NCBI GenBank assembly: GCA_905235795.1
Contig: CAJOMS010000001.1
Coordinates: 444 to 39,604, forward strand
Source: an uncultured Clostridia bacterium
GTDB taxonomy: Bacteria > Bacillota > Clostridia > Christensenellales > Borkfalkiaceae
DNA length: 39,161 nucleotides
Direction: 5' to 3'
Shown: positions 31,990-39,161 of the stretch, piece by piece
Position numbering within the stretch: position 1 is the first letter of the stretch
Layout of the letters: each line of letters opens with the position of its first letter
Notes under the pieces: model-generated
Seen by the model: the letters and a program-made list of their open reading frames with translations, nothing else
Database searches by the model: none
What the model was told of the DNA's origin: nothing
Position numbers and translations under genes: made by a program

Positions 31990-32212
31990 AAATGGCTCCC
32001 AAAAAGTTTTGCAAAGCAAAAGTTTTTGAAAAAAGAACCCGCGAGGAAATTTTTGATAAAAATATACGCGCGGTAAGGAGAAGTTTGCCTCGTAGCAGGG
32101 CGGCGAGAGCCATTAGCCGCCCGCAAATATGGCAACACTTCGACGTGGAGCCGACGTAAAAGCAAAGAGGTTACCTAAAGTAACCTCTTGCATAAATCGT
32201 CGTGCTCCGACG
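31990..32212 (-). repeat. tRNA-Ala-linked repeat, inverted copy of sequences at 38.6-39.16 kb
   Basis: Contains the reverse complement of 'cacgtcggagcacgacgatttatgcaagaggttactttaggtaacctctttgcttttacgtcggctcc' and of 'acgtcgaagtgttgccatatttgcgggcggctaatgg...cgccgccctgctac.aggcaaacttctcc'. Confidence 0.88.
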
Positions 32213-32288
32213 TGGTGGAGATAAGGGGATTCGAACCCCTGGCCTATGCGTTGCGAACGCATCGCTCTACCAACTGAGCCATACCCCC
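32213..32288 (-). tRNA. tRNA-Ala (anticodon CGC), CCA encoded
   Basis: Reverse complement gggggtatggctcagttggtagagcgatgcgttcgcaacgcataggccaggggttcgaatccccttatctccacca. Loop ttcgcaa gives CGC; G3:U70 identity pair present. Confidence 0.96.
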
Positions 32289-38388: not shown

Positions 38389-38464
38389 GGGGGTGTAGCT
38401 CAACTGGTAGAGCGCTTGAATGGCATTCAAGAGGTAAGGGGTTCGACCCCCCTCATCTCCACCA
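38389..38464 (+). tRNA. tRNA-Ala (anticodon GGC), CCA encoded
   Basis: gggggtgtagctcaactggtagagcgcttgaatggcattcaagaggtaaggggttcgacccccctcatctccacca. Loop atggcat gives GGC; G3:U70 present. Confidence 0.96.
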
Positions 38465-38644
38465 CTTTCGGCAGCCTGTTTCATATCAGGCAATAAAAAA
38501 AGAAGTTTGACCACTTCTTTTTTTATTGCCATCAATTTATGGCTGCCTTCGGTCGATTCAATGTGCGGATAACGAAATAATGTAGCACTCCATTTCATTC
38601 CGTTTACCTCGCTTTGCGAGGACGACCCCCCTCATCTCCACCAC
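38444..38644. mobile_element. ~179-bp insert flanked by 22-bp direct repeats of the tRNA-Ala 3' end
   Basis: cgacccccctcatctccaccac at 38444-38465 (inside tRNA) and 38623-38644. Confidence 0.65.
38470..38547. repeat. Nested long inverted repeat inside the tRNA-linked insert
   Basis: ggcaataaaaaaagaagt (38489-38506) / acttctttttttattgcc (38513-38530), 18-bp perfect arms; outer ggcagcc (38470-38476) / ggctgcc (38541-38547). Confidence 0.8.
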
Positions 38645-39161
38645 GTCGGAGCACGACGATTTATGCAAGAGGTTACTTTAGGTAACCTCTTTGCTTTTAC
38701 GTCGGCTCCTCCTTTATCCCGCGGATATTTTCTTTGAAAATCTCCGCGGGAGCCCTTTTTTTGCACGACGAATTATGCAAGAGGTTACTTTAAGTAGCCT
38801 TTTTGCTTTAACGCTTGCCGCTCCTTTATCCCGTGGATATTTTACTTTGTAAAATCTCCGCGGGAGCCCTTTTTTTAGCAAAGCGAATTATGCAAGAGGT
38901 TACTTTAAGTAGCCTTTTTGCTTTGACGCTTGCCGCTCCACGTCGAAGTGTTGCCATATTTGCGGGCGGCTAATGGTTCTCGCCGCCCTGCTACAAGGCA
39001 AACTTCTCCTTTCCGCTCGGATATTTTTCTGAAAAATCTCCTCGCGGGTGTTTTTTAAAAACTTTTGATAGGAAAAACTTTTTGGGAGCCCTTTTTTTAT
39101 GCACGACAATTTATGCAAGAGGTTACTTTAGGTAACCTCTTTGCTTTTACGTCGGCTCCAC
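38645..39161 (+). repeat. Array of four diverged hairpin-containing repeat units downstream of tRNA-Ala, running off the window
   Basis: 'atgcaagaggttacttta(g/a)gtarcctytttgctttwacg' units; 'gcaagagg' begins at 38665, 38777, 38892 and 39115, separated by ggatattt...aaaatctccgcgggagccctttttt spacers. Confidence 0.85.

Follow-up and report, generated by a model that had tools for sequence, protein, structure and literature searches.

The 178-bp repeats at the tyrT locus of Escherichia coli carry copies of the tRNA 3' end, and we know of no agreed account of their origin; a search of the literature on tyrT/RtT repeats and on repeats of tRNA ends found nothing pertinent. These RtT repeats (RF00391), which are widely annotated in E. 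coli as an sRNA, are arranged in tandem at tyrT/tyrV, and each closes with a duplicate of the tRNA-Tyr 3' end. In strain K-12, the tRNA-Tyr 3' end recurs in 178-bp steps behind tyrV (L204, 1210-1829), and each unit, as noticed in the present analysis, contains GGGGAAGGAT...TTCGA, an inverted copy of the T-stem and acceptor strand of the tRNA that precedes the hairpin-rich part and folds onto the direct copy. More generally, tRNA 3' ends are standard att sites, at which integrative elements duplicate the end of the tRNA and leave the tRNA itself intact (PMC4383910). The casposase of A. boonei produces a duplication of 14-15 bp at the 3' end of tRNA-Pro and reads a TCAAATC motif (PMC6614799), and the Xer-dependent filamentous phages provide a comparison for a folded attP (PMC4246890).

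The stretch of DNA analysed here (the window, 39,161 nucleotides from an uncultured Clostridia bacterium) has the RtT layout, namely a 179-bp unit closed by a repeat of the upstream tRNA's 3' end. The host gene, tRNA-Ala(GGC), identified with ARAGORN and Rfam, occupies 38389..38464 on the + strand, with nt 56-76 at 38444-38464, and all parts of the unit lie on the same strand. The 22-bp segment CGACCCCCCTCATCTCCACCAC at 38444-38465 recurs with 100% identity at 38623-38644, at a spacing of 179 bp; this direct copy comprises the tRNA-Ala 3' end from C56 to CCA plus one C. The inserted unit, from the CCA end to the second copy (38465..38622), is only 158 bp long and, as a first, sequence-only reading of this DNA had noted, codes for no integrase. 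It has a 5' module (38470..38547) in which an outer 7-bp stem (GGCAGCC at 38470-38476 and GGCTGCC at 38541-38547) encloses an A/T-rich terminator-like hairpin, the inner hairpin having perfect 18-bp arms (38489-38506 and 38513-38530); the module is supported by covariation in 35 relatives. Next come the position of IRa, the tRNA 3' end repeated in inverted orientation (38551..38576), which is clear in relatives and degenerate in the window unit, where its match to the tRNA end is at chance level; the conserved type-1 core GAAATAATGTAGCACTCCATTTCATTCCGTTTACC (38574..38608), delineated by alignment and by pattern and model searches; and the terminal hairpin CCTCGCTTTGCGAGG plus an A (38607..38622, the hairpin itself at 38607-38621) that abuts C56 of the tRNA copy. 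The exact duplication and the nested and small hairpins described in the sequence-only reading could thus all be located, and the predicted fold of the segment is 6.9 SD better than that of dinucleotide-shuffled sequences.

Another claim of that reading, that the insert had split the tRNA gene from its trailer, stands only in its observational part. The sequence behind the second copy indeed matches the flank of tRNA-Ala(CGC) at 32.2 kb over 65/65 bp, and that gene (32148..32288, - strand) has the repeat directly behind it and carries no unit. The 'trailer' (38645..39161, + strand), in contrast, is no proof of a split because it is dispersed: with at least eight matches in the window genome, including copies behind tRNA-Val(GAC) and a tmRNA, it represents a separate repeat family and not a private trailer. 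At 38645-39161 and 32148-32212, two hairpin repeats, GCACGACGATTTATGC... and CCCGCGGATATTTT..., alternate in tandem; this array also stands behind tRNA-Val(GAC), tRNA-Gln and a tmRNA in the window genome and behind tRNA-Ala in congeners, and is another dispersed tail-type repeat. The comparison with putative empty sites is similarly mixed: in two congeners (G004 and G005), the insert is missing and the repeat array directly adjoins tRNA-Ala(GGC), but synteny around this locus is not conserved within 3 kb. The insert would accordingly not be present at every orthologous locus, the pattern that had been named as evidence against an insertion.

A search at other tRNA ends, suggested from the sequence alone, recovers the same element within the window genome. 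A ~82% homologue of the insert lies directly behind tRNA-Val(CAC) (G000:C35:3923-4109) and ends in the 3' end of tRNA-Val (CGAGTCCCTCCGTCTCCACCAC), not in that of tRNA-Ala, which argues that the duplication is a property of the host tRNA rather than of the element; a truncated second unit comes next. Downstream copies of the tRNA's own end are also found at tRNA-Gln(CTG), tRNA-Asn(GTT), tRNA-Ser(GGA) and tRNA-Leu(CAA), the last of which (contig C29) shows the clearest IRa of this genome, which forms a stem along nearly all of the tRNA end. In all, 5 of about 46 tRNAs in this genome have a copy of their own end (two or fewer mismatches, within 2.5 kb). At tRNA-Ser(GGA) (L076, 2029-2359), the whole 168-bp trailer with its terminator is repeated after the tRNA-end copy, at a contig end; this repeat is a plain tandem duplication.

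Relatives of the unit are spread in uncultured gut Clostridia, and their distribution was traced in two ways. A pattern built from three copies and run on GTDB genomes matched 8 stretches, and those inspected are mostly located behind tRNA genes. A covariance model of the right end of the unit, searched over 396 genomes of the order, is positive in 21, nearly all of them from a single genus (g36 of family f19), with 1 to 12 copies each; that genus accounts for more than 120 copies, compared with two in the window genome and two in a neighbour genus. At the ~40 loci examined, nearly all units are located directly behind a tRNA gene and end in nt 56-76 of the same tRNA, as expected of the non-autonomous element targeting tRNA 3' ends that had been proposed for the window. 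The hosts cover more than 15 anticodons, including Leu(CAG, CAA, AAG), Ser(TGA, CGA), Glu, Ala(GGC, CGC), Met, Pro(GGG, CGG), Arg, Val(CAC, GAC), Ile and Gln. Unit length in relatives is mostly 172-193 bp (170-189 bp in 35 of 45 type-1 units). A related, type-2 right end (GTGACG..GATTG..CAATC..CTATTCCGTC..CGCTCCTTA) is present in the window genome, its genus, family f3 and the unit-rich genus g36. A census of tRNA ends (18-mer, 3 mismatches allowed, within 1.2 kb) finds tails behind 13 of 37 tRNAs in genome G257, where chance would yield an estimated 0.02 hits or so, judging from the 18-mer probability, and behind 4 of 33 in G011. In the latter genome, near-identical ~175-bp units with a different right end (...GGACAGTGGACACCCACTGTCC...) follow tRNA-Leu(CAA) and tRNA-Leu(TAG) (L029), each carrying the end of its own tRNA.

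From the tRNA outward, the order in a typical unit is outer stem with terminator-like hairpin, spacer, IRa, core, terminal hairpin plus A, and direct copy. In the alignment of 35 units, 86% of the inner-stem cells are paired, compared to 70% (sd 1.5) after shuffling, and 84% of the outer-stem cells, compared to 70% (sd 1.8); in both cases, 0 of 500 shuffles reach the observed value. The core, GAAATRAYGTAGCRCTCC...CGCTTACC, is nearly invariant among the aligned units. IRa repeats, imperfectly and in inverted orientation, the host's T-loop and T-stem together with some of the acceptor strand, with an insertion of 1-3 nt. Its score is 10.95 against its own tRNA, permuted tRNAs give 8.38 (sd 0.32), and 0 of 5000 permutations attain the observed score; opposite nt 57, the IRa base fits the host in 36 of 42 cases. 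In the direct copy, which spans C56 to A76 of the host tRNA, nt 57 is the host's own nucleotide in 43 of 44 units.

A tree of 35 units, from which IRa and the tRNA copy had been removed, requires 20 changes of isotype (minimum 8; shuffled mean 24.0), suggesting that units switch hosts while the duplication fits the new host. For example, the Ala and Val units of the window genome group together (support 100/100), as do the Leu and Ser units of G257 with a Glu unit of G154 (support 99/92); the Glu, Gln and Met units cluster partly by tRNA. In 30 of 44 units the direct copy reproduces the host end without a mismatch, the mean being 0.57 mismatches in 21 positions, and the 5' modules at the same isoacceptor show a mean identity of 65%. 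Units were collected with up to four mismatches, such that decayed copies are under-counted, and several tRNAs of G257 are followed by a 5' module with no recognisable copy. Given that most units are old (pairs at the same tRNA differ by roughly 10-40%), movement may be rare or a matter of the past; a search for a syntenic pair of empty and filled sites found none.

Some loci are more complex. Tandem units occur, e.g., at a tRNA-Glu in G268, with six copies of the tRNA end, and at a tRNA-Ser in G226, with three. In G257, genes for two D12 adenine methyltransferases and an HNH protein lie between two units behind tRNA-Ser(CGA) (L187, 6251-9625). This cargo looks restriction-modification-like; no integrase was identified in the larger unit, and no relatives of the HNH protein were detected in viral contigs. 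A longer unit behind a tRNA-Leu of G268 contains a small zinc-ribbon-like ORF. Conventional elements, among them the G138 prophage described below, also occupy tRNAs that carry units. In G154, an element with a large serine recombinase, oriented tail to tail with tRNA-Leu(CAG), ends before a type-1 unit (L184, 7519-12793). In four genomes, tyrosine recombinase genes of two unrelated families are located 5' of tRNA-Leu(CAG), outside the tail units (L116, 914-1813; L154; L156; L178), an arrangement that recalls, by analogy, an integron platform.

Candidate enzymes were surveyed among 20 carriers and relatives. Cas1 and reverse transcriptase are each encoded in 4 of the 20 genomes, resolvase in 13 and Y1 transposase in 12. 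Each of the four is missing from several carriers and was rejected as a universal mobiliser: G257, with its 13 tailed tRNAs, lacks them all, and the window genome is devoid of Cas1 and reverse transcriptase and has only a sub-threshold fragment of a Y1 transposase. Tyrosine recombinases are the only tested class found in every genome tested (17 of 17), and G120, with four units, has just one. A dedicated tyrosine integrase was also rejected: there are two families of ~300 aa proteins, neither present in all carriers, with three members of one and one of the other adjoining tRNA-Leu(CAG). Beyond the universal Xer-like enzyme (~360 aa, e.g. L161, L175), no tyrosine integrase is common to all carriers, and none of the families tested is confined to them.

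Comparison with the systems outlined above places the units among known architectures only in part. With the RtT repeats they share length, tandem arrangement, the terminal tRNA-end copy and the inverted copy that folds onto it, but in K-12 RtT is seen here only at tyrT/tyrV, whereas the Clostridia units stand behind many tRNAs and share a core and a terminator module. No RtT match is obtained at the Rfam gathering threshold in the window and three further unit-bearing loci, a relaxed scan of the units yields only chance matches besides the tRNA, and a search of annotated phages with the 3' part of RtT gives one partial, non-significant match. Given this lack of sequence similarity between RtT and the Clostridia units, what they have in common is an architecture, either homologous and diverged or convergent. 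The prophages and genomic islands that use tyrosine integrases likewise leave an intact tRNA and a flanking duplication of its 3' end, but the tail units have no integrase, are ~180 bp long, occupy many tRNA targets with one core and match the duplication to the host. In outline, the imperfect, bulged inverted repeat around a variable loop resembles the integron attC and the folded attP of CTX-phi, from which it differs in consisting of tRNA sequence and in the 21-nt duplication; the arrays would be comparable to integron cassettes at a fixed entry site, with the likeness to attC confined to the folded stem. Casposons, too, duplicate their target at a tRNA 3' end, but the duplication is 14-15 bp long and they possess terminal inverted repeats and a Cas1 gene, which most carriers lack. 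For a REP/RAYT system, the Y1 transposase would be expected, and it is absent from G257.

Taken together, these observations make it probable that the insert belongs to a family of non-autonomous, non-coding elements of about 180 bp, here called tRNA-tail units, whose insertion point lies precisely at the junction of a tRNA's CCA end with its trailer. The units share one anatomy with covarying stems, duplicate the end of their own host, are spread over many tRNAs, form tandem arrays and occasionally carry cargo. The window feature itself is real and structured and is part of a large family that appears mobile. Insertion would duplicate nt 56-76 of the tRNA (T-loop C56 to A76), so that the tRNA stays intact, and the 5' module would bring a new terminator. 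The right end (IRa, core, terminal hairpin and direct copy) is predicted to fold, with the inverted copy pairing with the direct copy in a long stem. Movement would depend on an enzyme supplied in trans. The most likely candidate is a tyrosine recombinase, possibly the Xer-like one resident in these genomes, which would act on the conserved right end, perhaps in the form of a folded single strand. We infer this step from the presence of such enzymes in all genomes tested and from the analogy with CTX-phi and integrons. Against this proposal counts the fact that conservative tyrosine recombination alone does not give duplications that follow the new host; the simplest account would be a target duplication at insertion that is later kept or refreshed.

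The units could instead be RtT-like RNAs or terminators that are maintained by the host, being tandem-duplicated at each tRNA and preserved by selection, without any mobility; one conceivable benefit is that the inverted copy would sequester the second copy of the tRNA 3' end. The shared layout of E. coli tyrT/RtT, annotated as an sRNA, the partial clustering of the Glu, Gln and Met units by tRNA, the near identity of the copies to the tRNA while the rest of the unit diverges, and the existence of tandem arrays are all compatible with such maintenance. Nevertheless, one conserved core and 5' module stand behind more than 15 different tRNAs, the tree includes 20 isotype changes and a fully supported clade of Ala and Val units from one genome, and duplications arising independently would not share a core, which renders host maintenance unlikely.

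If the mobile elements themselves were of another kind, a target-duplicating integrase related to casposase/Cas1 or to retroelements would explain a long duplication that follows the target, with the casposase at tRNA-Pro as a precedent (14-15 bp, PMC6614799; here 21-22 bp, always host-matched). We consider such miniature elements improbable, as Cas1 and reverse transcriptase are rare among the carriers and relatives and both absent from the window genome and G257. Very improbable is the notion that the units are scars of prophages or islands, i.e., attL/attR sites left by internal deletions. In its favour, tRNA 3' ends are standard att sites (PMC4383910), and in G138 the tRNA-Met locus holds an inovirus-like prophage with a Zot domain, a G2P-like Rep, BRO-N and a tyrosine integrase that has the tRNA end at its flanks (L186, 524-11984). 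This prophage, however, has its own, longer att repeat and lies between the tRNA and a complete unit; moreover, deletions would not leave units of uniform length (~180 bp) and common core behind so many tRNAs, neither the type-1 nor the type-2 module is matched in IMG/VR by exact pattern, and a search of annotated phages did not find the type-2 module.

That the tail units, as mobile elements inserted at tRNA ends, form a distinct class of protein-less tRNA-end elements is plausible but unproven. A bolder version is offered tentatively, as a possibility less likely to be true than false: the ~180-bp units might constitute a new mobile class that hops between tRNA genes, with the folded right end as the substrate of a resident recombinase, each hop duplicating nt 56-76 with a matching inverted copy; E. 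coli RtT might then be a surviving member, and the arrays might be integron-like platforms for cargo such as restriction-modification genes. A genus in which roughly one third of the tRNA genes, covering many isoacceptors, are followed by units, some of them with cargo, turns RtT from a curiosity into a comparative system, where one can look for empty and filled sites, for excised forms and for the enzyme. If the units are mobile, they would be protein-less elements whose target duplication follows the host, and would represent a new way for tRNA 3' ends to gather DNA while the tRNA remains unbroken.
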